Below, in pieces: positions 43,889 through 58,700 of a DNA stretch of 64,000 nt (positions are counted from its first letter, which is position 1; the number at the start of each line of letters is the position of its first letter). Both the position numbers and the translations under genes were made by a program. Source of the stretch: Sulfurimonas sp. HSL1-2 (GTDB lineage: Bacteria; Campylobacterota; Campylobacteria; Campylobacterales; Sulfurimonadaceae); the NCBI RefSeq assembly GCF_039645565.1, contig NZ_CP147914.1, positions 1,113,573-1,177,572 of the forward strand, given 5' to 3'. The notes below the pieces were generated by a model, which searched no databases, was not told where the DNA came from, and was given only the letters and a program-made list of their open reading frames with translations.

Positions 43889-43946
43889 TTAAGCTGCTTG
43901 ACCGGCTTGATAAAAATGTTAAACTGACACCCAGAAAGCATGTCAC

Positions 43947-43976
43947 GAGGTTGTCAAACCTCACCACTGTCATAAT
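43947..43976 (+). promoter_or_regulatory. Promoter region with inverted repeat for the guanidine operon
   Basis: CATAAT at 43971-43976 would be the -10 box, giving a transcript starting near 43983, the first bases of the riboswitch. Just upstream, GAGGTT (43947-43952) and AACCTC (43957-43962) form an inverted repeat overlapping the -35 zone. The same hexamers recur inside the riboswitch region. Confidence 0.45.
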
Positions 43977-43980
43977 AGAC

Positions 43981-44079
43981 GGCTAGGGTTCCGGCGGGTT
44001 ACCGTGTCTGGTCCGAGAGCTGTCGACCTCTTGAGTAGAGGTTACACGGAGGGATAAAAGCCCGGGAGGTTTCAACCTC
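43981..44079 (+). ncRNA. Guanidine-I riboswitch (ykkC-yxkD leader)
   Basis: The conserved blocks of the guanidine-I aptamer occur in order: CTAGGGTTCCG (43983-43993), CTGGTCCGAGAG (44008-44019), then ACACGG-A-GGGATAAAAGCCCGGGAG (from about 44044). Variable stems fall between, such as CCTC-TTGAGTA-GAGG. This RNA binds guanidinium and turns on downstream genes. The end of the aptamer runs into GAGGT-TTCA-ACCTC, which may be part of the expression platform. The gene downstream encodes the substrate-binding protein of an importer, the usual location for this class. AGGAG (44107-44111) precedes the ATG. Confidence 0.95.
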
Positions 44080-44117
44080 TTGGCGTGTTTATTCCATAAC
44101 CTACTCAGGAGATTATT

Positions 44118-45188
44118 ATGAAATCTATTTTCAAATCTACCTCAAAACTCTTAGTTGCCGCTACACTGGTCATGGGCTTCGGAGCCTCCTCGCTGATGGC
44201 GGAAGTCAAAGATAAGTTTCAGGTCTCCTGGACGATCTATGTCGGATGGATGCCGTGGGATTATGCCCAGCAAAAAGGGATCATCGACAAGTGGGCCAAG
44301 AAATACGGCATCGAGATCGAAATGGTCCAGGTCAACGACTACATCGAATCAATCAACCAATATACTGCAGGAAAATTTGACGGCTGTCTGATGACAAACA
44401 TGGATGCCCTCACGATCCCGGCTGCGGGCGGCGTCGACTCTACGGCGGTCATCATGGGTGACTACTCCAACGGGAACGACGGTATCCTCCTCAAAAACAA
44501 GAAAAACCTGACTGACATCAAAGGCCAGACGGTCAACCTCGTCGAACTTTCCGTCTCTCACTACCTGCTGGCACGTGCACTTGAAACGGTCGGCATGAGC
44601 GAAAAAGACGTCAAGGTCCTCAACACTTCCGACGCCGACATGGTCGCGGCATGGGGGACGAAAGACGTGACTGCAATGACGACTTGGAACCCGCAGCTCA
44701 GCGAGATCATGGCCGGCAATAAAGATGCGAACCTCGTTTTTGACTCCAGCAAGACGCCGGGCGAAATCATCGACATGCTCGTCATCAACACTGAAACGCT
44801 CAAAGACAACCCGAAACTTGCCAAAGCGCTGACGGGTGCATGGTTCGAAGTTATGGCACTGATGAAGAAGGGCGATGAAGCGGCACTGACGTTCATGGCA
44901 CAGGCTTCCGGTACGGACCTCGCAGGCTACAAGAGCCAGCTTGACTCCACGATGATGTTCTACACGCCCTCTGACCTGCTTGCCTTTACGACGAGCGCGG
45001 AAATCCCGGCGACAATGAAAAAAGTCAGCGAGTTCTCCTTTGAGCACGGTATCCTCGGTGAAGGTGCCCCTGACGCCGAGTTCATCGGTATGGCGTTCCC
45101 GGGCGGCAAAACGTTCGGTGATCCGAAAAACATCAAGCTCCGCTTCGACGACACCTTTGTCAAAATGGCCGCCGAAGGGAAACTGTAA
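44118..45188 (+). CDS. ABC transporter substrate-binding protein, guanidine/urea type
   Basis: A 356-residue periplasmic protein with a signal peptide (MKSIFKSTSKLLVAATLVMG to about residue 28), of the NitT/TauT-like family annotated as putative urea ABC transporter binding protein. The ligand pocket region contains VSWTIYVGWMPWDYAQQKG with three Trp residues, apt for a planar cation. It directly follows the guanidine-I riboswitch, so guanidine or a guanidine derivative is the likely ligand. AGGAG precedes the ATG. The permease gene starts nine bases later. Confidence 0.9.
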   Translation: MKSIFKSTSKLLVAATLVMGFGASSLMAEVKDKFQVSWTIYVGWMPWDYAQQKGIIDKWAKKYGIEIEMVQVNDYIESINQYTAGKFDGCLMTNMDALTIPAAGGVDSTAVIMGDYSNGNDGILLKNKKNLTDIKGQTVNLVELSVSHYLLARALETVGMSEKDVKVLNTSDADMVAAWGTKDVTAMTTWNPQLSEIMAGNKDANLVFDSSKTPGEIIDMLVINTETLKDNPKLAKALTGAWFEVMALMKKGDEAALTFMAQASGTDLAGYKSQLDSTMMFYTPSDLLAFTTSAEIPATMKKVSEFSFEHGILGEGAPDAEFIGMAFPGGKTFGDPKNIKLRFDDTFVKMAAEGKL

Positions 45189-45197
45189 GGTCCTCTT

Positions 45198-46022
45198 ATG
45201 AAACGATTAATGAACCTCAGACCGTCGAAGCAGTCCCTCTTTTTCCTGGGACTGCTGCCGTTCGTCCTGGTCGCGCTCTTCTACCTTGGAGCGTCGGAAG
45301 TCCGCCTGGCGGCCAATCCGGACGACAAACTGCTGCCCTCCATGAGCAGCTTTGCCGAGGCGATCGACCGTATGGCACTCACACCGAGCAAACGGACCGG
45401 CGAATACCTCTTTGTCGAGGATACGGTCTCTTCGCTCGAGCGCCTGGGTCTCGGGGTACTCATCAGTGCCGTGCTTGCACTGCTGATGGGGATCCCGCTG
45501 GGGTTCATTCCCTTCGTTCGTGCAGGACTTTCGCCCTTCGTCGCGGCCTTCTCCATGGTGCCGCCAATGGCTATTTTGCCCATCTTATTCATCATATTCG
45601 GCATGGGTGAGCTGGCTAAAGTAGCACTGATCGTCATCGGGGTGACCCCGCTGATCGTCCGCGACCTGCAGCAGCGGGTCATGGAGATCCCGGTCGAGCA
45701 GCTCATCAAGGCGCAGACCCTGGGCGGAACGTCATGGAGCATCGTGCTGCGCGTCGTGCTGCCGCAGATCTTCCCGCGGCTGCTCGATGCGGTGCGCCTC
45801 ACGATGGGAACGGCGTGGATCTTCCTGATCTCCGCCGAGGCGATTTCGGCCACCGAAGGGCTGGGGTACCGGATCTTCCTGGTACGCCGCTACCTGTCGA
45901 TGGATGTGATCCTGCCGTATGTCGCCTGGATCACCTTCCTCGCCTTCTTATTTGATTACCTGCTCAAGCGGTTCACCTACAAGGTGTTCCCGTGGTATGA
46001 CGCAGGGAAGGAGCAGTCATGA
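45198..46022 (+). CDS. ABC transporter permease, guanidine/urea type
   Basis: A 274-residue permease of the NitT/TauT (SsuC/TauC-like) class with about six helices. The cytoplasmic EAA loop is seen near residues 170-190 (KAQTLGGTSWSIVLRVVLPQ). A periplasmic stretch (about 40-80) contains acidic residues. It forms the channel with the binding protein upstream and the ATPase, whose ATG overlaps its stop by four bases. Confidence 0.92.
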   Translation: MKRLMNLRPSKQSLFFLGLLPFVLVALFYLGASEVRLAANPDDKLLPSMSSFAEAIDRMALTPSKRTGEYLFVEDTVSSLERLGLGVLISAVLALLMGIPLGFIPFVRAGLSPFVAAFSMVPPMAILPILFIIFGMGELAKVALIVIGVTPLIVRDLQQRVMEIPVEQLIKAQTLGGTSWSIVLRVVLPQIFPRLLDAVRLTMGTAWIFLISAEAISATEGLGYRIFLVRRYLSMDVILPYVAWITFLAFLFDYLLKRFTYKVFPWYDAGKEQS

Positions 46023-46783
46023 GCCTCGTCACCGTCAAAAACCTCTGGAAAGAGTACGGCGACAACGTCGTACTGGAGAACATGAGCCTGAACATCGAAG
46101 CGGGCGAATTCTGTACGCTCGTCGGACCGTCGGGTTGCGGGAAAACAACCTTTCTGAAGATGCTGCTGGGACAGGAAAACCCGACGCGCGGCACCTTTCT
46201 GCTCGAGGGGAAACCCTTCCCGGAAGAGCCGGGTGTAGACCGCGGGATCGTTTTCCAGCGCTATTCAGTCTTTTCGCACCTGAGCGTGCTGAAAAACGTC
46301 ATGCTGGGGATCGAGTTTGAAAAAGCCCCGCTGATGGGCCGCCTTTTCGGCCAGGCCCGCAAGGAGGCCGAAGCCGAAGCGATGGCGATGCTCGAAGCCG
46401 TCGGCCTCGGCGACGCGGCGCACAAGTACCCCAGCGAACTCTCCGGGGGGATGCAGCAGCGCCTCTCCATTGCGCAGTCTCTGGTCAAAAAACCGAAGAT
46501 CCTACTGCTGGACGAACCGTTCGGCGCCCTCGACCCGGGGATCCGTGCCGATATGCACGCGCTGATCCTCGACCTGTGGAAGAAGAACAACCTTACCGTC
46601 GTCATGGTGACCCATGACCTGCACGAGGGGTTCTACCTCGGCACGCGTCTGCTGGTCTTCGACAAGGTCCGCCACGACCCGCAGGCCCCCAACGCCTACG
46701 GTGCGCGCATCACCTACGATATCCCCGTCGGGGATACGCGCGACTCCGTGCTCAAAGAGATCGACCAGACCTTCAAGGTCTGA
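46019..46783 (+). CDS. ABC transporter ATP-binding protein, guanidine/urea type
   Basis: A 254-residue ATPase. Walker A is GPSGCGKTT (36-44), signature LSGGMQQRLSIAQ, Walker B ILLLDEPFGALDPG and the H-loop VMVTHDL. It powers the importer. The C-terminus (about 215-250) is slightly extended and carries DIPVGDTRDSVLKEID. It is the last gene before the first guanidine-II riboswitch; 92 bases separate it from the next start. Confidence 0.95.
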   Translation: MSLVTVKNLWKEYGDNVVLENMSLNIEAGEFCTLVGPSGCGKTTFLKMLLGQENPTRGTFLLEGKPFPEEPGVDRGIVFQRYSVFSHLSVLKNVMLGIEFEKAPLMGRLFGQARKEAEAEAMAMLEAVGLGDAAHKYPSELSGGMQQRLSIAQSLVKKPKILLLDEPFGALDPGIRADMHALILDLWKKNNLTVVMVTHDLHEGFYLGTRLLVFDKVRHDPQAPNAYGARITYDIPVGDTRDSVLKEIDQTFKV

Positions 46784-46792
46784 ACCCTATTC

Positions 46793-46809
46793 GGAAGAGA
46801 TGCTCTTCC
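46793..46809 (+). promoter_or_regulatory. Hairpin just upstream of guanidine-II riboswitch 1
   Basis: GGAAGAG (46793-46799), ATG loop and CTCTTCC (46803-46809) form a perfect 7-base-pair stem ten bases after the ABC ATPase stop. No U-run follows, so it is probably not an intrinsic terminator; it may mark a processing site or insulate the riboswitch. Confidence 0.4.
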
Positions 46810-46812
46810 CGT

Positions 46813-46855
46813 GCCGCAGGACGACCTGCGGCATCGCGACGTCCGGGACGGCCCG
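46813..46855 (+). ncRNA. Guanidine-II riboswitch (mini-ykkC), copy 1
   Basis: Two stem-loops with ACGR tetraloops, the signature of the class: P1 GCCGCAGG (46813-46820), loop ACGA, CCTGCGGC (46825-46832); P2 CGGG (46844-46847), loop ACGG, CCCG (46852-46855). The linker is 11 bases. The GAAGGAG ribosome site (46864-46870) of the DUF1989 gene follows by eight bases, so control of translation is likely. Copy 2 at 50167 shares both loops. Confidence 0.92.
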
Positions 46856-46875: not shown

Positions 46876-47613
46876 GTGATAACTGAACACGAAAACCTGA
46901 AACCAGAATCCATCATCCTCGACGAGGTGCTCCCGGGCGGTGCGCGCTGGTCGAAGATCATCAAACGCGGCGACAAGCTGCGCATCACGACCAAGGACGG
47001 GCTGGGCACGCTCAGCGCGATGTTCTACAACGCCGATAACACCGCGGAGCGTTTCAACTCCGCCGACACGGTCAAACTTCAGCACAATGCCTACTTCTGC
47101 AAAGGGCGGGTCTTCTATTCCGAGCAGGGACGCGTCCTGCTCTCCATTACGGAAGATACGACTGAAGGTCTCTTCGATGCCATCGGCGGCATCAGCAACC
47201 CGCGCATCGTCGCGAAAAACTTCGGCGAGGGTGACTTCGAGCATATCCGCAACCGTTATTACAAAAGCGACCGCGAAAACTTCCTCGTCGAACTGGGCAA
47301 ATACGGCATGGGCAAACGCGACATGATCCAGGCAATCAACTTCTTCAGACGGGTCGACGTCAAAGAGGGCAACAAGCTGGCACTTTCCGAAAGACGTCCG
47401 CAGCCTTTGAGTTACATCGAGCTGCGTGCGGAGATGAACGTCCTGCTGGTGCTCTCCAACACGCCGCATGTCATGGAAACGGGAACATACAACCCCAGCG
47501 ACGTCCAGCTGACGCTGTTTAAAGCGGCCCCGGTCACCGAAGATGATTACTGCATGAACTTCAGTATCCAGTCCAAACGTGCGTTCCAGAACAACGCACG
47601 CTATTTTGCCTGA
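46876..47613 (+). CDS. DUF1989 protein, carboxyguanidine deiminase subunit (urea carboxylase-associated protein 1)
   Basis: A 245-residue DUF1989 protein, of the type long annotated as urea carboxylase-associated and more recently shown to form a deiminase with its partner that converts carboxyguanidine to allophanate and ammonia (CgdAB). The core contains GGARWSKIIKRGDKLRITT, FYNADNTAERFNSADT and ELRAEMNVLLVLSNTPH, the DUF1989 pattern. GTG start at 46876, five bases after GAAGGAG. Directly under a guanidine-II riboswitch. Eleven bases to its partner gene. Confidence 0.9.
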   Translation: MITEHENLKPESIILDEVLPGGARWSKIIKRGDKLRITTKDGLGTLSAMFYNADNTAERFNSADTVKLQHNAYFCKGRVFYSEQGRVLLSITEDTTEGLFDAIGGISNPRIVAKNFGEGDFEHIRNRYYKSDRENFLVELGKYGMGKRDMIQAINFFRRVDVKEGNKLALSERRPQPLSYIELRAEMNVLLVLSNTPHVMETGTYNPSDVQLTLFKAAPVTEDDYCMNFSIQSKRAFQNNARYFA

Positions 47614-47623
47614 GGAGCGCGTG

Positions 47624-48244
47624 ATGAAAAGAGATATCGAAACAGCCGTTTACAACCACAAACTGCCGGCGGGCGTGCCGTGGAGCTACGTCGTGAAAAA
47701 AGGCCAGACGCTGCGTATCGTCGACCTTGAGGGGTGCCAGGCCGTCGACACGCTGTTTTACAATGCCAATGATCACGAAGAGCGCTACTCTGCCAACGAT
47801 ACGATCCGCGAACAGGGGAGCATCTTCGTTACGACGGGTACCCAGCTGATCTCCACCGACGACAACGTCATGATGACGATCACCGACGATACCTGCGGCA
47901 ACCACGATACCCTGGGCGGCCACTGCAGCGCGGAGAGCAACACCGTGCGCTACGGCCACAATACGAAGTACATGCACAGCTGCCGCGACAACTACCTGTT
48001 CGAGATCGGCGAGCGCGAGATGGACCCGCGCGACCTCACGAACAACATCAACTTCTTCATGAACGTGCCGATCGAGGAGAACGGTTTCCTGATCATCGTC
48101 GACGGGATCTCCAAACCGGGAGACTACGTCGATATGAAAGCGGAGATGGACACGCTGGTGCTGATCTCGAACTGCCCGCAGCTCAACAACCCGTGCAACG
48201 CGTTCAACCCGACGCCGATCCAGCTGATCGTCTGGGACGACTGA
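47624..48244 (+). CDS. DUF1989 protein, carboxyguanidine deiminase subunit (urea carboxylase-associated protein 2)
   Basis: A 206-residue DUF1989 protein, the partner of the one above. It keeps the probable metal site: ADTLFYNANDHEERYSAND, DDTCGNHDTLGGHCSAES with Cys and two His, and MHSCRDNYLFE; in the first subunit these Cys/His residues are absent, so this subunit is probably catalytic and the other structural. That is an inference from residues only. GAGGAG lies six bases before the ATG at 47624. Confidence 0.9.
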   Translation: MKRDIETAVYNHKLPAGVPWSYVVKKGQTLRIVDLEGCQAVDTLFYNANDHEERYSANDTIREQGSIFVTTGTQLISTDDNVMMTITDDTCGNHDTLGGHCSAESNTVRYGHNTKYMHSCRDNYLFEIGEREMDPRDLTNNINFFMNVPIEENGFLIIVDGISKPGDYVDMKAEMDTLVLISNCPQLNNPCNAFNPTPIQLIVWDD

Positions 48245-48248
48245 GACG

Positions 48249-49262
48249 ATGAAAAAGACGACACGGCTTCTGCGCTTCGAAGATGCATGGCTGCCGAACC
48301 TGGCGGCATGGGCCTATATGCTCGGCGCCTACGTGGGCGGTTTTGCCGCCATCATGGCCGACGCGCTGTGGCTCAACGCCGCCGGGGTGCTTCTGCTGGC
48401 ACACGGCATGGTCATCGCCGCGTACTTTATCCACGAGTGCGCCCACGATTCACTCTTCAGGCTGCCGATCAACAACCACCGTTTCGGAGAGGTATTGCTC
48501 TGGATCTGCGGCGCGTCGTACAGTGATTACGAGGCGATACGGATGAAGCATGTCCGCCATCACTTGGACCGTGCCGATGTCGTCTCGTTCGATTTCCGCA
48601 CCCGCCTGCCCCACTACCCGAAACTGCTCAAGACGATCCAGGTTTTGGAGTGGTTCTACATTCCCGCCCTCGAGATCATGATGCACGCCCTGGTCGTGAT
48701 TCTTCCGTTCATGAAGGAGAGCCGCCGCTATCTTCGCCGCCGCGTCGTTACGGTACTCGTGCTGCGCATCGCTTTCTTTGCCGCACTGGCGTCGATTGCG
48801 CCGAAAGTGTTGCTGCTCTACCCGTTGGCGTACATGATCTTCCTGACGGTCATGCGTTTCATGGACGTGCATCAGCACACCTATGACGTGCATGAAACGC
48901 TGGATTTTTCGCGCGAAGCGCAAGTGAAACAGTATGACCGCGCCTTCGAATCGCGCAACACCTATTCGAACCTGTTTTCTGAAAAATACCCGTGGCTGAA
49001 CCTGCTGGTTCTCAATTTCGCGTACCACAACGTTCACCACGATCAGCAGATCCAGCCGTGGTACCGGCTGCCGGGGCTGCATGCCAAGCTCTACGGCGAC
49101 GACAGGACGCAGGTCCTGATGTTCTCCGACCTGGCGCGCAGCTACCACCGCTACCGTGTCGCGCGGGTCCTCAACGGGGACCCGGCCGACCTTGACGTCA
49201 GGCACGACGGGGGCCGCACCTTTATCGGGGTGGACGGCGTCTCGTTCCTGACGGCGCACTGA
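48249..49262 (+). CDS. Membrane di-iron fatty acid desaturase-family protein
   Basis: A 337-residue membrane protein of the desaturase/hydroxylase superfamily. Its three histidine boxes are complete: HECAH (62-66), HVRHH (101-105) and HNVHH (260-264), with extra histidines in DVHQHTYDVHE (208-215). At least four hydrophobic helices surround them. Relatives desaturate acyl chains or hydroxylate alkanes and other small molecules using O2. Nothing in guanidine degradation needs it, yet it lies four bases after the deiminase gene, inside the riboswitch-controlled unit. It could oxidise a substituted guanidine to release guanidine, or modify lipid. Function unknown. Confidence 0.82.
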   Translation: MKKTTRLLRFEDAWLPNLAAWAYMLGAYVGGFAAIMADALWLNAAGVLLLAHGMVIAAYFIHECAHDSLFRLPINNHRFGEVLLWICGASYSDYEAIRMKHVRHHLDRADVVSFDFRTRLPHYPKLLKTIQVLEWFYIPALEIMMHALVVILPFMKESRRYLRRRVVTVLVLRIAFFAALASIAPKVLLLYPLAYMIFLTVMRFMDVHQHTYDVHETLDFSREAQVKQYDRAFESRNTYSNLFSEKYPWLNLLVLNFAYHNVHHDQQIQPWYRLPGLHAKLYGDDRTQVLMFSDLARSYHRYRVARVLNGDPADLDVRHDGGRTFIGVDGVSFLTAH

Positions 49263-49272
49263 AGGAGTCAAC

Positions 49273-50055
49273 ATGACCCAGGTAAAGAAGTTCTGGCCCA
49301 TTCTCACCGGCACCCACCGCTATGAAAAAACCCTTTCGACGCGGGGACATGGACAGGGAATCATCATAACTGCTCCAATTTTAAGCTATTTGATCGAAAC
49401 AGCCCACGGTCGGATACTGTATGATGTCGGCTGTGACTACTCCAAGATCGCCGACGACGTGAAACGCAAAAAGTTTTACGAGCACGAGGGGTTTCCCTTC
49501 GGGCCGCCGACGATGGAGGAGGAGCAGCGTCTTCCCAACCGCCTGGCCGAACTGGGATTGCAAGCGGAGGATATCGACGTCGTCTTCTGCGGCCACCTTC
49601 ACTTTGACCATGCGGGCGGGGTGTGTGAGTTCTGTGGTGCCGAGGTGCACGTACACGAGAAAGAGCTCGAAGCGGCCAACGCGCTGGCGGACGAAGCCTA
49701 TTTCAAAGAGGATTTCGACTGCCCGGTCAACTGGCGCGTCTATAAGGGCGATTACGACCTCGTCCCCGGTGTGCGCGCCATCGAGACCCCCGGCCATACG
49801 GCCGGGCACATGTCGATGATGATCGAACTGCCCAAAGGGCCCCCGATCCTGCTCTGCGGCGACGCGGCCGACCTGCAGGAGAATCTCGAACAGGAGATCG
49901 TCCCGGGGCTGTGTTGGCAGGATCGTGAAGACATGGCGCTTGACAGTATCAAGAAACTCAAACACCTCGCAAAGGAGACGGGGGCCGAACTGTGGCCCAA
50001 CCACGATATCAAGTTCTTCGAAAGCAAGAACCGCTTTCCGCGGTTCTTTCATTGA
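49273..50055 (+). CDS. Metallo-beta-lactamase-fold hydrolase, N-acyl-homoserine-lactonase-like
   Basis: A 260-residue MBL-fold enzyme with the zinc motif GHLHFDHAGG (His108, His110, Asp112, His113) and further ligands in TPGHTAGHMS and LCGDAADL. Overall resemblance is to AHL lactonase-like hydrolases (AttM/AiiA group), which open lactone rings. The substrate here is unknown. The gene starts 10 bases after the desaturase-family gene and is the last before an intrinsic terminator, so the two probably work together. Confidence 0.85.
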   Translation: MTQVKKFWPILTGTHRYEKTLSTRGHGQGIIITAPILSYLIETAHGRILYDVGCDYSKIADDVKRKKFYEHEGFPFGPPTMEEEQRLPNRLAELGLQAEDIDVVFCGHLHFDHAGGVCEFCGAEVHVHEKELEAANALADEAYFKEDFDCPVNWRVYKGDYDLVPGVRAIETPGHTAGHMSMMIELPKGPPILLCGDAADLQENLEQEIVPGLCWQDREDMALDSIKKLKHLAKETGAELWPNHDIKFFESKNRFPRFFH

Positions 50056-50111
50056 GAACGTGTCTTGAGCAAAGCCCAAAACACTACGCTGGCCACTAAG
50101 GCGCTAAAGCT

Positions 50112-50137
50112 TGCCCCTGTGGGGCAGAAACATTTTT
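50112..50137 (+). terminator. Intrinsic terminator between the two halves of the guanidine locus
   Basis: TGCCCC (50112-50117), TGT loop, GGGGCA (50121-50126) followed by GAAACATTTTTT. It lies 57 bases after the MBL gene stop and 30 bases before guanidine-II copy 2, so the carboxylase part likely has its own promoter or depends on read-through. No clear -10 box was seen in 50138-50166. Confidence 0.6.
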
Positions 50138-50166: not shown

Positions 50167-50209
50167 CTGTGCTGGACGACCTGCACAGGTATCCGAACGG
50201 GACGGCCCG
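50167..50209 (+). ncRNA. Guanidine-II riboswitch (mini-ykkC), copy 2
   Basis: P1: CTGTGC (50167-50172), a T-T mismatch, GG, loop ACGA (50176-50179), CC and GCACAG (50183-50188). P2: CGGG (50198-50201), loop ACGG, CCCG (50206-50209). The loops and the P2 stem are identical to copy 1, while P1 sequence differs but keeps pairing, as expected for a real RNA. The ribosome site GAGGAAGAG and the carboxylase ATG (50233) follow. Confidence 0.92.
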
Positions 50210-50232: not shown

Positions 50233-53200
50233 ATGTTTAAAAAAGTTTTGATTGCCAATCGTGGTGAGATCGCCTGCCGCGTTATCCGTACTCTCAAACA
50301 GATGGGAATCGGCTCCGTCGCCGTCTATACGGGTGCCGATACCGACTCCCTCCACGTCAGCCTTGCCGACGAAGCCTACTACATCGGTCACGGCGTTGCC
50401 AGCGAGAGCTACCTCGACGCTGCCAAGATCCTTGACATTGCGAAGCAGAGCGGCGCCGAAGCGGTCCACCCCGGCTACGGTTTTCTGAGCGAAAACGCGG
50501 CGTTTGCCAGCGCCTGCGAAGCGGCGGGGATCGCCTTTATCGGTCCGCGCACGGAGCACATGGAGAAGTTCGGTCTCAAGCACACGGCCCGCGCCCTGGC
50601 CGAGGCGAACAACGTTCCCCTCCTGCCGGGCTCCTCGCTGCTGGCCGACCTGGACGAAGCGAAAAGTGAAGCGGTGCGCATCGGCTACCCGGTCATGCTT
50701 AAAAGTACCGCCGGCGGCGGCGGGATCGGGATGCAGCTCTGTTTTGACGAAGTGCAGCTGCTGAGTGCTTACGACTCCGTCAAGCGCCTCAGCGAAAACA
50801 ACTTCTCTGATGGCGGGATGTTCCTGGAAAAATACGTTGCACATGCGCGCCACATCGAAGTACAGGTCTTCGGGGACGGCGAGGGCTTCGTCGCGACGCT
50901 GGGCGACCGCGACTGTTCCGTCCAGCGCCGCAACCAGAAGGTGATCGAGGAGACCCCGGCCCCCGGGATTTCCGACGAAACGCGTCAGGCCCTCTACAAG
51001 GCAGCGCAAGAGCTGACGGCCTCCGTATCCTACCGTTCCGCCGGGACGGTCGAGTTCGTCTACGACACCGACAGCGGCGAATTTTACTTCCTCGAGGTCA
51101 ACACCCGCCTGCAGGTCGAGCACGGTATTACCGAAGAGGTCACCGGCGTTGACCTCGTCGAGTGGATGATCCGCACGGCTGCCGGCGAGAACCCGGCGCT
51201 CTATGACTACGCCCACAACCCGCAGGGCCACGCCATCCAGGTACGCGTCTACGCCGAAGACCCGATGAAGAACTTCCAGCCCAGCTCCGGCGTGCTGACG
51301 AACGTCGCCTTCGCCGATGGGATCCGCTGCGACACCTTTATCGAAACGGGGCTCGAAGTCTCCTCCTTCTACGACCCGATGATCGCCAAGCTCATCGTCA
51401 AGGGCAACGACCGCAGCGACGCGCTTGCCAAGATCGGCGCTGCCATTGGCGGCACCCGCATTGACGGCATCGAGACGAACCTCCGTTACCTCGGGGCCAT
51501 CGTCGCCTCCGAGGTCTTTGTACAGGGCAAACAGACGACGAAGTACCTCGACGGCTTCAGCTTTACCCCCAGGAGCATCGACGTCCTGCGTCCGGGAACT
51601 CAGACGACGATCCAGGACTACCCTGGCCGCAGCGGCTACTGGGACATCGGTGTCCCGCCATCGGGTCCATTTGACAGCTTCAGTTTCCGCTACGCCAACC
51701 GGCTTGTCGGCAACAGCGAAGCGGCGGCGGGCCTCGAGATCGCCATCGCCGGGCCGACACTGCGCTTCAACACCGACAGCGTCGTCGCGCTCTGCGGCGC
51801 ACAGATCGACGCATTTATCGACAACGAACCGGTCGCGATGAACGAGGCACTCCCGGTCAAAGCGGGCAGCGTGCTCAAACTGAAAAAAGTCCACAACGAA
51901 GGGTTCCGCACCTACCTGGCCGTGCGCGGCGGGTTCGACGTTCCCGAGTACCTCGGCAGCCGCTCGACCTTTACCCTGGGGCAGTTCGGCGGTCACGCGG
52001 GACGTACCCTCGTTCCGGGTGACGTCCTGCACATCGATACGATGACGGAGGGCGACGCGGCCGTAGCCCCGGCAGAGCCGCGCAACGGGCTGGCGAATAC
52101 CTGGGAGATCGGCGTGCTCTACGGACCGCACGGCGCCCCGGACTTCTTCACGGATGACGATATCGAGACCTTCTTTGCGACGGAGTGGGAGATCCACTAC
52201 AACTCCAACCGTACGGGTATCCGCCTCATCGGCCCCAAACCACAGTGGGCGCGTACAGACGGCGGCGAGGCGGGGCTGCACCCCTCCAACATCCACGACA
52301 ACGCCTACGCGATCGGCGCCGTGGACTTCACCGGCGACATGCCGGTCATCCTCGGCCCCGACGGCCCGAGCCTCGGCGGTTTCGTCTGCCCGGTGACGAT
52401 CGTCAGCGCCGAGCTCTGGAAGATGGGGCAGCTGCGCGCGGGTGACAAGGTGAAATTCGTCCCGGTCGAACATGACACGGCGATGGCGATGCTCAAAGCG
52501 CAGGAAGAGGCGATTGCAACCCTCTCAACCTACGACGAACGCCCCTTCCTAGACCCCAAACCGATCGGTTCGCCGATCCTCTTCGCCGATGAGGCGAAGG
52601 GCGACCTTCCGGCCATGGTCATCCGCCAGTCCGGCGACGCGAACCTTCTCGTCGAGTATGGCGAGATGCAGCTTGACATCGAGCTGCGCTTCCGCGCCCA
52701 TGTACTGATGGAGGCGATGAAGGAGGAGGCCTTCGAGGGCGTCACCGACATCACTCCGGGCATCCGCTCGCTGCAGGTGCATTTCGACCCGAAGGTCTGC
52801 GACCGCGCGGCGCTCATTGAACGCCTCAAAGAGATCGAGCTGACCCTGCCGTCCATCGACGACATCGAGGTGCCGGCGCGCGTCGTACACCTGCCGCTCT
52901 CCTGGGATGATGAATCGACCCGCGTCGCCATCGACAAGTATATGAAGACGGTCCGTCCCGACGCGCCGTGGTGTCCTTCGAACATCGAGTTCATCCGCCG
53001 TATCAATGGTCTGGACTCCATCGACGAGGTCAAGAAGATCGTCTTCGGCGCCAACTACCTCGTCATGGGCCTTGGTGACGTTTACCTTGGAGCCCCTGTT
53101 GCGACGCCGCTCGACCCGCGCCACCGCCTGGTTACGACCAAGTACAACCCGGCGCGGACCTGGACCCCGGAAAACGCCGTCGGTATCGGCGGGGCCTATA

Positions 53201-53835
53201 TGTGTGTCTACGGGATGGAAGGTCCCGGCGGCTACCAGTTCGTCGGCCGTACGGTACAGATGTGGAACCGCCACCGCCAGACTCAGGACTTCAAAGAGGG
53301 CAAGCCGTGGCTGCTGCGCTTCTTTGACCAGATCAAGTTCTACGAGGTGAGTGCCGAAGAGCTGCACAAGATGCGCGAGGATTTCCCGCGCGGCCGGATG
53401 AAGCTCGACGTCGAAGAGACGACCTTCAGCCTCAAGGCGTATAAAGATTTCCTCGCCGAAAACGAGACGAGCATCAAGACCTTCAAAACGACCCAGCAGG
53501 CCGCCTTCGACGAAGAGCGCGCGATGTGGGAACGCACGGGGCTGGCGAACTTTACCTCTGAAAGCGGCGAAGTGAAAGCAGAGACGATGGAAATCATTGA
53601 GCTCGGCGAACACGACGAAGCGGTCGAGTCCCCGGTGCAGGGGAGCCTCTGGAAGGTAATGGCGAAGCTCGGCGACACGGTCGAGGAGGGCGAAGTGCTT
53701 GCCATCGCCGAATCGATGAAGATGGAAGTTGACATCGAGGCCCCCGAAGCGGGCAAGATCGTCAAGGTGCTCTGCCACGAGGGCGAGAGCGTGCATGCGG
53801 GCAAGATGCTCTTCGTCATCGAACCGCAGGCGTAG
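50233..53835 (+). CDS. Biotin-dependent guanidine/urea carboxylase
   Basis: A 1,200-residue single-chain carboxylase. Order: biotin carboxylase (1 to about 445; start [21 protein letters not shown]-grasp with [12 protein letters not shown], and [13 protein letters not shown]), KipA/AHS2-like part (about 455-760; [20 protein letters not shown]), KipI/AHS1-like part (about 765-990), and a C-terminal biotin carrier domain with biotinyl Lys1163 in AESMKMEV. It carboxylates guanidine, or urea, with bicarbonate and ATP. Context (riboswitches, DUF1989 pair) favours guanidine. It lacks the allophanate hydrolase domain of fungal urea amidolyase, which is encoded separately downstream. Confidence 0.93.
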
Positions 53836-53843
53836 GAGCGGCC

Positions 53844-54695
53844 ATGAAACTGCAGCTATATAAAACCATGTGGGGATTCGAAGGGGACTTCGAGACCGCC
53901 TGCGCCGAAGCCTCTGCGGCCGGCTTTGCCGGCATCGAAGGTCCGGCACCCGAGTCCTCCTCCCAGCGTGCCTACTGGAAGAAGTGCCTGGAGCAGTACA
54001 ACCTGCACTATATCGCAGAGGCGGTCACCGGCGGCGGTTACGTGCCGCAGCGCGATCTCGGTGTCGAAGGGCACCTGGACGACCTTAACGCGATCCTCTC
54101 CCGCAGTGCCGAACTCTCCCCGCGTTTCGTGACCTGCATCGGCGGGCTGGACGCCTGGAGCGAAGCGGAGAGTCTGCGCTTTTTCACCGAGGGGATGAAA
54201 CTGGCGGAGCGGTACGGAGTGCAGATCAGTTTCGAGACCCACCGCAGCCGGAGCCTTTTCAATCCCTGGGTAACGCGGCGCATCGTCGAAGCGCTCCCGG
54301 AGATCGCGCTCACGCTCGATATCAGCCACTGGTGCGTCGTCTGCGAACGGCAGATGGACAGCGAACCCGAAGCGATCAACGCGATCGTGCCGAACGTGAT
54401 GCATATCCATGCCCGCGTCGGTTACGACCAGGGGCCGCAGGTACCGCATCCCGCGGCGCCGGAGTACGCCTATGCGCTCAAAGCGCATCAGGGGGTCTGG
54501 GAACAGGTCTGGGACAGCCAGCGCCGCCGCGGTTTCGGGTTTACAACGATGACGCCGGAGTTCGGCCCCGACGGCTACCTCCACACGCTCCCCTTTACCA
54601 AGGCGCCGGTTGCCGATCTTTGGGAGATCAACCAGTGGATGGGCGAAACGGAACGCTTCTACTTTCAGCGTCACAAAGTAAAGGCCGTGGTATGA
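53844..54695 (+). CDS. Sugar phosphate isomerase/epimerase-like TIM-barrel protein
   Basis: A 283-residue protein of the xylose isomerase-like TIM-barrel superfamily (AP endonuclease 2 fold). Acidic and histidine metal-ligand candidates occur at strand ends: GFAGIEGPAPES, ISFETHRSRSLFNP, LTLDISHWCVV and NVMHIHARVGYDQ. Members isomerise sugars, cleave or decarboxylate small molecules; the substrate cannot be told. It is in the second riboswitch-controlled unit, eight bases after the carboxylase gene, and its stop overlaps the EamA transporter start. Confidence 0.8.
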   Translation: MKLQLYKTMWGFEGDFETACAEASAAGFAGIEGPAPESSSQRAYWKKCLEQYNLHYIAEAVTGGGYVPQRDLGVEGHLDDLNAILSRSAELSPRFVTCIGGLDAWSEAESLRFFTEGMKLAERYGVQISFETHRSRSLFNPWVTRRIVEALPEIALTLDISHWCVVCERQMDSEPEAINAIVPNVMHIHARVGYDQGPQVPHPAAPEYAYALKAHQGVWEQVWDSQRRRGFGFTTMTPEFGPDGYLHTLPFTKAPVADLWEINQWMGETERFYFQRHKVKAVV

Positions 54696-55576
54696 GTTCA
54701 CATCTCCCCGTCGTCGTGCTGCTCGGCGCATCGGTCCTCTGGGGGCTTACCTGGCTGCCGCTCAAACAGATCAACGGCATGGGGATCGACGGCATCGCAC
54801 TGACGATGGGTGCCTACGGTATCCTCGCCCTTCTGCTGACGCCGCTGCTTATGGCGCAGTTCTCGCAGTGGCGCCAACACAAACGTGCTATGGCGATGAT
54901 CCTGCTCTTCGGCGGGGGCGCGAATCTTGCGTTTACCTATGCCCTCATCAACGGCGAGGTGATCCGAGTGATGGTGCTCTTCTACCTGCTGCCCGTCTGG
55001 GGCGTGCTTGGCGGGAAGTTCTTCCTGCGCGAAGGCGTCGACCTCTGGCGCTGGCTCGGTGCCGCGCTGGCGGTCACGGGCGCCTTCGTTATTCTCGGCG
55101 GGTTTGATGCCCTCGGCGGGGCCCCGTCGTGGATCGACCTGATCGCGCTGCTCTCGGGCCTGCTGTTTGCGATGAACAACCTGGTCTTCCGTGCCGCGGC
55201 AGAGGTCCCGGTCGGTTCGAAGATCACGGTGATGTTCTACGGCTGTCTGATCCTGGCAGGGGCGCTGCTCGGCCTGGGCGTGGAGCAACTCCCCTATGAT
55301 GCGGACGCCGACGCATGGCTCGCCCTGGCGGCCTACGCGGTGCTGTGGCTGCTGCTGGCCAACATCGGTTCGCAGTGGGGCGTTTCGCATATGGAAGCGG
55401 GGCGCTCCTCCATCATTATTATCATGGAGCTGATCACCGCGGTTATCTCCGCGACGCTCATTGCGGGCGAGCGGATGGACGCCATGGAGATGATCGGCGG
55501 CGTGCTGATCCTTGCTGCGGCGCTGATCGAGGCGCTGCGTACGAAAGAAGATGATCTTCCCGAGACGACGTTTTAA
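54692..55576 (+). CDS. EamA-family (DMT) transporter
   Basis: A 294-residue membrane protein with about ten helices in two EamA repeats (VVVLLGASVLWGLTWLPLK at the N-terminus; LLFAMNNLVFRAAAEVP in the second half). DMT transporters often export amino acids or amines, but the direction and substrate are unknown. ATG overlaps the stop of the TIM-barrel gene (ATGA), so the two are coupled. In this setting it could export excess guanidine or an intermediate, or import a related compound. Confidence 0.88.
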   Translation: MSSHLPVVVLLGASVLWGLTWLPLKQINGMGIDGIALTMGAYGILALLLTPLLMAQFSQWRQHKRAMAMILLFGGGANLAFTYALINGEVIRVMVLFYLLPVWGVLGGKFFLREGVDLWRWLGAALAVTGAFVILGGFDALGGAPSWIDLIALLSGLLFAMNNLVFRAAAEVPVGSKITVMFYGCLILAGALLGLGVEQLPYDADADAWLALAAYAVLWLLLANIGSQWGVSHMEAGRSSIIIIMELITAVISATLIAGERMDAMEMIGGVLILAAALIEALRTKEDDLPETTF

Positions 55577-55590
55577 GAAAGGAATACATT

Positions 55591-56922
55591 ATGACGATTT
55601 CACAACTTTTGAACGACTATAAAAGCGGTACAACGACCCCGCGCGAAGTGATGGCACAGATACGTGCGCTTATCGCGGAGCATGCGGAAAACCCTATTTT
55701 CATCCATGCGCTGAGCGAGGCGGAGACCGAACCTTACCTCGAGCGCCTTGAAAGGGTGAGTCCTGGTTCCCTGCCGCTCTACGGCGTCCCCTTTGCGATC
55801 AAGGACAACATCGACCTCGCCGGGGTCCCGACGACGGCGGCCTGTCCGGCCTACCGCTACGTTCCGGAAGCCTCCGCTTTCGTTGTCGAACGGCTGATCG
55901 AAGCGGGGGCGATCCCCGTGGGCAAAGCCAACCTCGACCAGTTTGCGACGGGGCTTGTGGGGACGCGTTCGCCTTATGGGGCCTGCCGCAACAGTATCGA
56001 TCCTTCCTATATCTCCGGAGGCTCCAGTTCCGGGAGTGCCGTCAGCGTCGCGCTGGAAATGGCGGCCTTCTCCCTGGGAACGGATACGGCGGGATCGGGC
56101 CGCGTACCGGCGGCCTTTAACAACCTCGTGGGGGTCAAGCCCTCCAAGGGGGTTCTGAGCACCTCCGGTGTCGTGCCGGCGTGCCGCAGCCTCGATTGTG
56201 TCTCAATCTTTGCCCTCAACACCGATGACGCGCAGGCTGTCTTTGATGTCGCCTGCGCCTTTGACGCCGCAGACCCTTACAGCCGTAAGATGCCGGAGAC
56301 AGCGGGTGCAGTGGAAAAAACGATGCGTTTTGCCGTGCCGCTGCCGTCCCAGCTGAAGTTCTTCGGGGACAGCGAGGCAGAAGCACTCTTCAGCGCCGCA
56401 GCGGCACGTTTCGAATCTATGGGGTATACGGCGATAGAAACCGATTTCTCGCCGATGCTCGACGCGGCAAATCTGCTCTATTCTGGTCCCTGGGTCGCGG
56501 AGCGCTATATTGCGGCCAAGCAGATCATGGACGAGCAGCCCGAAGAAGTGCTGGAGGTTACCCGTTCGATCATTGAGCAGGGTCGTGAGAAGAGCGCGGT
56601 GGACTATTTTGCCGCCGAGTACCGGCTCAAGGAGTACAAACGGCAGTCCGAGCTTGTACTCGAGGGGATGGATTTCGCGCTGACACCGACGACGGGAACC
56701 ATCTACACCATCGAAGCGGTCAATGCCGACCCGGTGCAGCTCAATACGAACCTCGGCTACTACACGAACTTCATGAACCTGCTTGATTTCTCGGCCTATG
56801 CCGTGCCGGCCGGTTTCCGCAGCAACGGATTACCGTTCGGCGTCACGCTGTTTGGTGATGCCTTTGAGGACCGCCGTCTGATGGAGATCGGCAAAGCGTA
56901 CGTGGAGGTGTCCCGTGGCTGA
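55591..56922 (+). CDS. atzF: Allophanate hydrolase, amidase part
   Basis: A 443-residue amidase-signature enzyme. The Ser-cisSer-Lys triad is visible: Lys71 in FAIKDNIDLAG, the SGGSSSGSA stretch (142-150), and nucleophile Ser169 in GTDTAGSGRVPA. In the AtzF family the substrate is allophanate, and the TAGSGR sequence and length fit. The usual fused C-terminal domain is missing and is encoded as the next gene, whose GTG start overlaps this stop by eight bases. Release of the final ammonia from allophanate completes the guanidine pathway. Confidence 0.9.
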   Translation: MTISQLLNDYKSGTTTPREVMAQIRALIAEHAENPIFIHALSEAETEPYLERLERVSPGSLPLYGVPFAIKDNIDLAGVPTTAACPAYRYVPEASAFVVERLIEAGAIPVGKANLDQFATGLVGTRSPYGACRNSIDPSYISGGSSSGSAVSVALEMAAFSLGTDTAGSGRVPAAFNNLVGVKPSKGVLSTSGVVPACRSLDCVSIFALNTDDAQAVFDVACAFDAADPYSRKMPETAGAVEKTMRFAVPLPSQLKFFGDSEAEALFSAAAARFESMGYTAIETDFSPMLDAANLLYSGPWVAERYIAAKQIMDEQPEEVLEVTRSIIEQGREKSAVDYFAAEYRLKEYKRQSELVLEGMDFALTPTTGTIYTIEAVNADPVQLNTNLGYYTNFMNLLDFSAYAVPAGFRSNGLPFGVTLFGDAFEDRRLMEIGKAYVEVSRG

Positions 56923-57313
56923 GACGATTAAGATCGCCGTCTGCGGTGCGCATATGCGCGGGCTGCCGCTCAATCACCAGCTGACTGCACTGGATGCAAC
57001 CTTTGTCACTGCGACGAAAACGGCCAAAGGGTACCGCCTTTACGACGTGCCTGATAAGGTGCCGCCGCGTCCGGGGATGGTGCGCGACAGCGCAGCGCAG
57101 AGTGCCGTGACACTCGAGGTCTGGTCGATGCCGCTGGAACACTTCGGCGCTTTTATGGTCCAGATCGCTTCGCCGCTCTGTATCGGCACCGTGCTGCTTG
57201 AAGACGGTAGTGCCGTTTACGGCTTTTTATGCGAGTCGGATGCCCTCAAGGGTGCCGCGGAGATCACCGCCTTCGGCGGCTGGCGGGAGTACCTCGCTTC
57301 AAAGCAGGGCTGA
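56915..57313 (+). CDS. Allophanate hydrolase C-terminal domain as separate protein
   Basis: A 132-residue protein matching the C-terminal domain of AtzF-type allophanate hydrolase, a gamma-glutamylcyclotransferase-like fold: IAVCGAHMRGLPLNHQL at the start and VLLEDGSAVYGFLCESDAL near the end. In the fused enzymes this domain decarboxylates N-carboxycarbamate made by the amidase. Here it starts on a GTG inside the end of the amidase gene, so the pair is coupled. The 172 bases after it hold an inverted repeat and the porin promoter. Confidence 0.88.
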   Translation: MAETIKIAVCGAHMRGLPLNHQLTALDATFVTATKTAKGYRLYDVPDKVPPRPGMVRDSAAQSAVTLEVWSMPLEHFGAFMVQIASPLCIGTVLLEDGSAVYGFLCESDALKGAAEITAFGGWREYLASKQG

Positions 57314-57485: not shown

Positions 57486-58700
57486 ATGAAAATGACAAAA
57501 ATGAGTTTGATGGCAGCACTGCTCCTGGGAAGCAGCGCTTTTGCATTTGAAAATACAGAAGTGGGCGGGGATGCACGTTTCTTCTATTCGACTTTTGACG
57601 GTCACGGTGCCGATCTTTTCGGTAAGGCGACAAGCACTGCTGACTTCGGTGGCCGCCTGAGCATTACGACGGATATCGATGAGATCCTCTCCGCCGGTGC
57701 GACAGGGTATGCCGTCAGTACGCTGGGCCTTGATAAAGAGATTGCCAACAACGTATGGTCCGGTGCGCATATTGACAATGCGACAGGTGATTTTTATACG
57801 ACGACCGGCTGGATCGGCGAAGCGTGGCTCTCTGCAAAACTGGGCAACACAGTCGCAAAAGCGGGCCGCATGGAACTCGATACGCCGCTGCTCTTTACGG
57901 AAACGTGGGGTATTACAGCGAACAACTTTGAAGCGGCGACGATCACCAATACGGATATCCCGGGTACGACGCTTGTCGGCGCATGGGTCGCGACAGGAAA
58001 CGGTTACTCCCAGTTCCTGCTGACAGATACGAAAGGTGAGTTCACAACCATCGGTGACCAGGGTGCGATCGCTGTCGGTGCGATCAACAACTCATTTGAA
58101 CCGCTGACGGCACAGGCGTGGTACTACGAACTGCCGGACACCGCGACGGCCTACTGGCTGCAGGCTGACCTCTCCATCGCCGGTATTGTCGCAGGTCTGC
58201 AGTATACGGACATCAACCCGAACGAGCTCATCTCCACGGCAGACGACTCCACGGCATTTGCGGCAAAACTGGGTTACGAAGGTGTCGAGAACCTCGGTAT
58301 CTATGCATCCTACTCTACCACGGATAAGGACGGTGACCAGTATATCGGGAACATCGCAACCGCACCTGGCGAAGGGTGGGGTATGCAGTCCAAGCTCTAC
58401 ACGGAAGCGTGGTGGAACTTCGGTTACGTCGGTCTGCCGGGTACGGATGCCTACAATGTCACAGCGACCTACAGCCTGCCTGAAATCGCCGATCTCGGAC
58501 TCTTCTACACGAACATCGACACCGATGGCGGAGCAGGTCTGACCTATTTTAAAAACAAGGTAAGCGAAGTCACCTTTACCGCGGCAAAATCGTTCGGCAA
58601 GCTTGATGCGCTCTTCGCGTATATCTATGCGGACGATGACGCTATCAACGACGGCGACGCCTACAACACGCTGCAGCTCTACCTCGTCTACAACTTCTAA
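57486..58700 (+). CDS. Outer-membrane porin-like beta-barrel protein
   Basis: A 404-residue protein with signal peptide (MSLMAALLLGSSAFAFE), a mature part of alternating hydrophobic strands with Gly/Asp/Thr turns, and an aromatic last residue (LQLYLVYNF), the outer-membrane barrel assembly signal. It resembles the Campylobacterota porin family (OprD-like). Substrate unknown. It lies directly downstream of the guanidine genes but across an AT-rich 172-base gap with its own promoter region, so it may belong to the locus (guanidine entry) or be a general porin. Confidence 0.82.
   Translation: MKMTKMSLMAALLLGSSAFAFENTEVGGDARFFYSTFDGHGADLFGKATSTADFGGRLSITTDIDEILSAGATGYAVSTLGLDKEIANNVWSGAHIDNATGDFYTTTGWIGEAWLSAKLGNTVAKAGRMELDTPLLFTETWGITANNFEAATITNTDIPGTTLVGAWVATGNGYSQFLLTDTKGEFTTIGDQGAIAVGAINNSFEPLTAQAWYYELPDTATAYWLQADLSIAGIVAGLQYTDINPNELISTADDSTAFAAKLGYEGVENLGIYASYSTTDKDGDQYIGNIATAPGEGWGMQSKLYTEAWWNFGYVGLPGTDAYNVTATYSLPEIADLGLFYTNIDTDGGAGLTYFKNKVSEVTFTAAKSFGKLDALFAYIYADDDAINDGDAYNTLQLYLVYNF

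Follow-up and report, generated by a model that had tools for sequence, protein, structure and literature searches.

A riboswitch directly ahead of an ABC importer raises the questions of which compound the importer brings into the cell and what the genes behind it do. We addressed them for 64,000 nucleotides of Sulfurimonas sp. HSL1-2 DNA (the window), whose relevant features are collected in Table 1. The reading that we favour, at a probability of about 0.6, combines a guanidine-on switch, a guanidine-assimilation operon and a cassette of further genes that would release guanidine; the ligand response, the specificity of the importer and the chemistry of the membrane di-iron protein of the cassette (DESAT) are parts that we infer. 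The riboswitch itself is ordinary and, like the core operon, known biology; the cassette is the new part and makes the operon a variant.

Table 1. Features of the guanidine locus, in window coordinates
Feature	Position	Strand	Basis
Likely sigma-70 promoter, TTGACC-16-TAAACT, extended -10	43898..43925	+	-10 region conserved in relatives
Guanidine-I riboswitch aptamer (RF00442)	43972..44070	+	91.8 bits, E 3e-15
Intrinsic terminator, CCGGGAGGTT-TC-AACCTCTTGG + CGTGTTTATT	44062..44093 (hairpin 44062-44083)	+	conserved in 14 aligned relatives
ABC importer substrate-binding protein (TIGR03427)	44118..45188	+	556 bits, cut-off 334
ABC importer permease	45198..46022	+	family searches
ABC importer ATPase	46019..46783	+	family searches
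Guanidine-II (mini-ykkC) riboswitch 1, before cgdA	46813..46855	+	41.2 bits, gathering 32
Carboxyguanidine deiminase subunit A (cgdA, UAAP1, DUF1989)	46876..47613	+	TIGR03425 271 bits, cut-off 206
Carboxyguanidine deiminase subunit B (cgdB, UAAP2, DUF1989)	47624..48244	+	TIGR03424 345 bits, cut-off 285
DESAT, membrane di-iron fatty-acid-desaturase-superfamily protein, proposed guanidino-compound hydroxylase	48249..49262	+	PF00487 E 2e-33
MBL, metallo-beta-lactamase-fold hydrolase, AiiA / 4-pyridoxolactonase group (lactonase-like)	49273..50055	+	family + similarity
Guanidine-II (mini-ykkC) riboswitch 2, before gca	50168..50209	+	35.3 bits, gathering 32
Guanidine carboxylase (gca)	50233..53835	+	D698, D949 at diagnostic positions
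TIM, xylose-isomerase-like / tagatose-3-epimerase-like barrel	53844..54695	+	PF01261, fold search
EamA-family transporter	54692..55576	+	ORF; L041 orthologue matches EamA; similarity
Allophanate hydrolase, amidase part	55591..56922	+	TIGR02713 589 bits, cut-off 511
Allophanate hydrolase C-terminal part, separate ORF	56915..57313	+	ORF + similarity

The Guanidine-I riboswitch and its leader

A cmscan search with all of Rfam 15 placed a Guanidine-I match on the plus strand at 43972-44070, at a score well above the gathering threshold of 63 bits, and in the scan of the whole window this match was significant and full length (1-107 of the 107 model positions). The covariance model thus bore out the Guanidine-I riboswitch that the initial annotation had read from the letters. 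Its span, 43981-44079, did fall on the aptamer, but was off by 9 bases, the real start lying upstream; its placement just before the binding-protein gene was right, the aptamer ending 48 bases before that gene. The 2.52-Mb genome contains this single Guanidine-I match, and 16 of 298 genomes of the same order have one. Alignment of 14 sequences showed conservation of the aptamer core, of both arms of the terminator and of the ribosome-binding site that follows. It is therefore almost certain that this element is a Guanidine-I riboswitch heading the core operon of guanidine assimilation, with a response to guanidine that is predicted from its sequence.

The intergenic region contained a single sigma-70-like site, with TG ahead of its second hexamer, and the corresponding -10 region was mostly TG.TATACT-like in relatives; transcription likely starts ~40 nt upstream of the aptamer. 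The -10 box that had been proposed beside the aptamer found no support, this upstream site being the only one of its kind between the genes. A box at the aptamer edge (43971-43976) was rejected because transcription would then begin inside helix P1, and the upstream extended -10 site was backed instead. At the other end of the leader, the terminator hairpin overlaps the aptamer, its 5' arm being the aptamer 3' end, and the predicted ligand-free fold of the leader includes the terminator (z -4.7). Aptamer and terminator are thus predicted to be mutually exclusive through their common strand, the coupling of the expression platform that is expected of Guanidine-I, and by its sequence the leader is of the usual guanidine-on, terminator-based design. 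When guanidine is absent, the leader RNA would fold the terminator from the aptamer 3' end; when guanidine is bound, the aptamer would retain that strand and transcription would read into the operon.

Between promoter and aptamer lies a further hairpin (43947-43962) with GAGG/CCTC arms, whose arm sequence is identical to that of the terminator and which occurs in most of the 14 aligned relatives. Its columns were 87.8% paired with one pair changed on both sides, and since this covariation does not exceed that of shuffles, we dropped it as a conserved functional element.

The core operon and the ligand of its importer

Behind the importer genes, both DUF1989 subunits of carboxyguanidine deiminase scored above the cut-offs of UAAP1 and UAAP2. 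Guanidine carboxylases are told from urea carboxylases by Asp at Kluyveromyces lactis positions 1330 and 1584 (PMC11410670); in an alignment to the K. lactis urea amidolyase (5i8i), D698 of the carboxylase fell on N1330 and D949 on D1584, so that the gca product has Asp at both. Together with allophanate hydrolase, importer, deiminase and guanidine-type carboxylase make up the known guanidine-assimilation architecture, through which guanidine would be converted via carboxyguanidine and allophanate to ammonia and CO2. The allophanate hydrolase is encoded here by two overlapping ORFs (55591-57313; a 443 aa amidase and a 132 aa C-terminal part) and in Thiomicrorhabdus (L041) by one ORF of 606 aa. 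In other guanidine operons a NikR-like regulator precedes cgdA (L041:2339-2821, L048:15014-15463, L117:822-1304); in L041, the only locus in which its domains were tested, it consists of a ribbon-helix-helix and a NikR C-terminal nickel domain.

The initial annotation was right about a riboswitch before an ABC importer, but missed two Guanidine-II riboswitches as well as the extra cassette. Both Guanidine-II copies (RF01068) have ACGR-type loops, ACGA and ACGG, and sit 20-24 nt ahead of cgdA and gca, where they probably add translational control of the two genes. Other members of the genus share this layout: in L020 both copies scored above threshold, and in L021 and L022 the second is recognisable at a score below it. 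Just upstream of each Guanidine-II lies another hairpin (~46792-46810 and 50111-50127), the one before gca being terminator-like.

A similar layout is known from Vreelandella boliviensis, where Guanidine-I comes first, followed by an ABC importer, cgdAB, an internal Guanidine-II before gca, and atzF; binding data are available for this operon, its Guanidine-I binding guanidine and not methylguanidine, and its Guanidine-II binding both (PMC12508155). Unlike that operon, which has one Guanidine-II, the window has a second copy before cgdA. In the operons of Raoultella, Klebsiella and Erwinia, and by prediction in the window, Guanidine-I controls importer and deiminase, and Guanidine-II controls carboxylase and allophanate hydrolase; no guanidine-releasing cassette is described for them, whereas the window has a cassette and two Guanidine-II elements (PMC12186494, which also reviews the layout).

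The riboswitch had been taken to fix guanidine as the ligand of the importer. Guanidine is indeed the likely ligand, judged from protein family and operon context, but the claim went too far: TIGR03427 is named 'putative urea ABC transporter substrate-binding protein' in NCBIfam, and a riboswitch reports guanidine in the cytoplasm, which may also be the product of an imported precursor. If the importer carried mainly urea or another guanidino compound and the switch responded to guanidine produced intracellularly, the riboswitch would still be right and the ligand assignment wrong. This accords with the 'urea' label, with operons whose guanidine-releasing enzymes could act on an imported precursor, and with the statement that guanidine importers had yet to be studied directly (PMC12508155). 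We nevertheless regard it as unlikely, given that the same importer type accompanies cassette-free guanidine pathways (L026-L034) and that the carboxylase has guanidine-type residues; the presence of the deiminase, and of both residues in the carboxylase, favours guanidine over urea. In related genomes (L023:14237-15973, L024, L025), a second Guanidine-I lies directly before an outer-membrane porin-like gene, which is followed by the importer Guanidine-I. In the window, a 42% identical porin-like gene (57486-58700) immediately follows the operon, with no riboswitch of its own; such porins may let guanidine through the outer membrane.

The cassette and its distribution

Two of the cassette genes, DESAT and MBL, lie between cgdB and gca, and the other two, TIM and EamA, between gca and the allophanate hydrolase genes. 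DESAT belongs to the membrane fatty acid desaturase superfamily by its Pfam match, its invariant histidine motifs (H62..H66, H101..H104-H105, H260..H263-H264) and a fold search with FADS/AlkB-type entries among the best folds. Fold and histidine pattern are those of the AlkB / fatty acid desaturase superfamily; DESAT differs from it in its context of guanidine nitrogen assimilation and in an invariant C-terminal SFLTA motif. For TIM, the fold search returned a tagatose/allulose-3-epimerase-like fold, and sequence searches found no relative of solved structure for either protein. An earlier report of this cassette, or of a desaturase, in guanidine operons was not found in the main texts of the openly accessible papers searched.

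Within the order of the window's genome, DESAT occurs in 4 of 298 genomes, all in the genus. Outside the genus, the closest relatives (54-67% identity) come from sulfur-oxidising and other Gammaproteobacteria, which suggests horizontal transfer. The DESAT-MBL-TIM-EamA neighbours are conserved in Thiomicrorhabdus, Hydrogenovibrio and others, and in Thiomicrorhabdus-type bacteria the four genes form a separate cassette, sometimes right behind its own Guanidine-II. A Guanidine-II lies directly before DESAT (within ~60 nt) in L040, L041, L042 and L053, that is, in only four of the ~15 cassette loci first found, and in three of these genomes (G299, G306, G307) it is the only Guanidine-II above threshold. 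In Gammaproteobacteria the cassettes often include a further binding protein, and several include a creatininase-family protein and a type III glutamine synthetase.

DESAT also goes with the guanidine pathway across genomes. Among 62 genomes of one order, 24 had DESAT: all 23 with cgdB and one of the 39 without it (Fisher 4e-16, a value that ignores shared ancestry). In a sample of 398 Pseudomonadota, cgdB was found in 42 genomes (11%) and DESAT in seven, each of which had both (Fisher 9e-7 without the centre genome, again ignoring shared ancestry). Sampled genomes are related, and the Fisher values are descriptive. There are counter-examples: MBL, TIM and EamA are kept without DESAT in g2/g5 family members, Halieaceae have DESAT-TIM pairs although they lack cgdB, and for two genomes with DESAT, G321 and the draft G307, no cgdB match was obtained.

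These distributions bear on whether the cassette serves guanidine metabolism at all. It might instead degrade a compound unrelated to guanidine, such as a lactone or something sugar-like, and be present by chance or as nitrogen-scavenging luggage. A lactonase-like MBL, an epimerase-like TIM and the Halieaceae pairs, which occur without the guanidine pathway, would fit such a role; the strong co-occurrence of DESAT with cgdB in two samples and the four genomes with Guanidine-II directly before DESAT make it quite improbable. The cassette probably acts on a guanidino compound.

A proposed oxygenase route to guanidine

In the V. boliviensis operon the extra genes, a 2-OG dioxygenase (MgdH) and MgdL, free guanidine from methylguanidine (PMC12508155); release of guanidine by the membrane di-iron protein, MBL hydrolase, TIM barrel and EamA transporter in their place here is our proposal. 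MgdH-MgdL demethylation and the proposed route would have a common logic, in which an N-alkylguanidine is hydroxylated and the hemiaminal then split. DESAT is not homologous to MgdH, being a PF00487 protein and not a 2-OG/Fe(II) dioxygenase, and tblastn found no MgdH homologue in the window.

The neighbours of DESAT elsewhere would connect it to this chemistry. The company of DESAT in four distant clusters (L099, L100, L102, L104) includes short-chain dehydrogenases, EamA, a creatininase-family protein (which in L099 scores 374 bits for creatininase, against an NCBI cut-off of 235), an isochorismatase-family enzyme that resembles biuret hydrolase, and a protein in which a D-x-R motif is invariant. 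L116 carries a homologue of the D-x-R protein next to a 2-OG dioxygenase, in the interval from gca to atzF where mgdH-mgdL are published to lie. Its D and R are residues 49 and 51, precisely the numbers reported for the catalytic residues of MgdL, and gene order, partner and this numbering are our grounds for calling it an MgdL homologue. Eight sampled genomes had an MgdL homologue by sequence: five with a dioxygenase nearby, three with DESAT and none with both. The DESAT loci L102 and L052 are two more cases of an MgdL homologue without a dioxygenase. Because the sampled homologues have either the dioxygenase or DESAT nearby and in no case both, DESAT appears, from gene neighbourhoods, to replace MgdH as their oxygenase partner.

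Methylguanidine, creatine and creatinine are the candidate substrates, proposed because creatininase and MgdL homologues neighbour DESAT. As a membrane di-iron oxygenase, DESAT would hydroxylate an N-alkylguanidine-type compound (methylguanidine, creatine or creatinine-like), and the guanidine freed afterwards would feed the carboxylase, the same job as that of the unrelated MgdH in Vreelandella. We give about even odds to DESAT being a hydroxylase that leads to guanidine, with substrate and chemistry deduced from its relatives and neighbours. An MgdL homologue (D49/R51) was found neither in the window by tblastn nor in its genome or Thiomicrorhabdus-type genomes by a profile search that was run without a positive control; in the window's genome, the lyase step would therefore need MBL, TIM or spontaneous decay. 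MBL as a plain substitute for MgdL found no support, since L102 and L104 carry both.

An alternative function for DESAT would be to modify membrane lipids against guanidine stress, with no part in catabolism, the cassette being a stress add-on. Its Pfam family is that of fatty acid desaturases, which often act on lipids, and a putative fatty acid methyltransferase of Nitrospira inopinata is upregulated on guanidine (PMC11410670). Lipid genes, however, are not what surrounds DESAT: its conserved neighbours comprise hydrolases, an ABC binding protein, creatininase and MgdL homologues, and beside MgdL homologues it occupies the place of MgdH; a role in lipid modification is thus distinctly improbable. 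If DESAT is instead the proposed hydroxylase, it could found a further class of guanidino-compound hydroxylases, unrelated to the first, that is under the control of guanidine riboswitches, turns creatinine, creatine or methylguanidine-type compounds into guanidine in one go or by way of methylguanidine, and has taken over from MgdH in several lineages, sulfur oxidisers among them; this broader claim could go either way. MgdH was the only characterised riboswitch-linked hydroxylase that we found. To our knowledge, few guanidine-producing reactions are known and the natural origin of guanidine is largely open, which is why the cassette matters: a di-iron enzyme that is linked to riboswitches and comes from an unrelated superfamily offers a specific candidate, open to testing, for how guanidine could be made from creatinine or methylguanidine, and such a route broadens what guanidine importers may have to carry.

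One genome (G324, locus L105) has two copies of DESAT, one in the usual cassette and the other as a TIM-DESAT pair with its own ABC importer, adjoining a biuret-hydrolase-like gene and the guanidine pathway.
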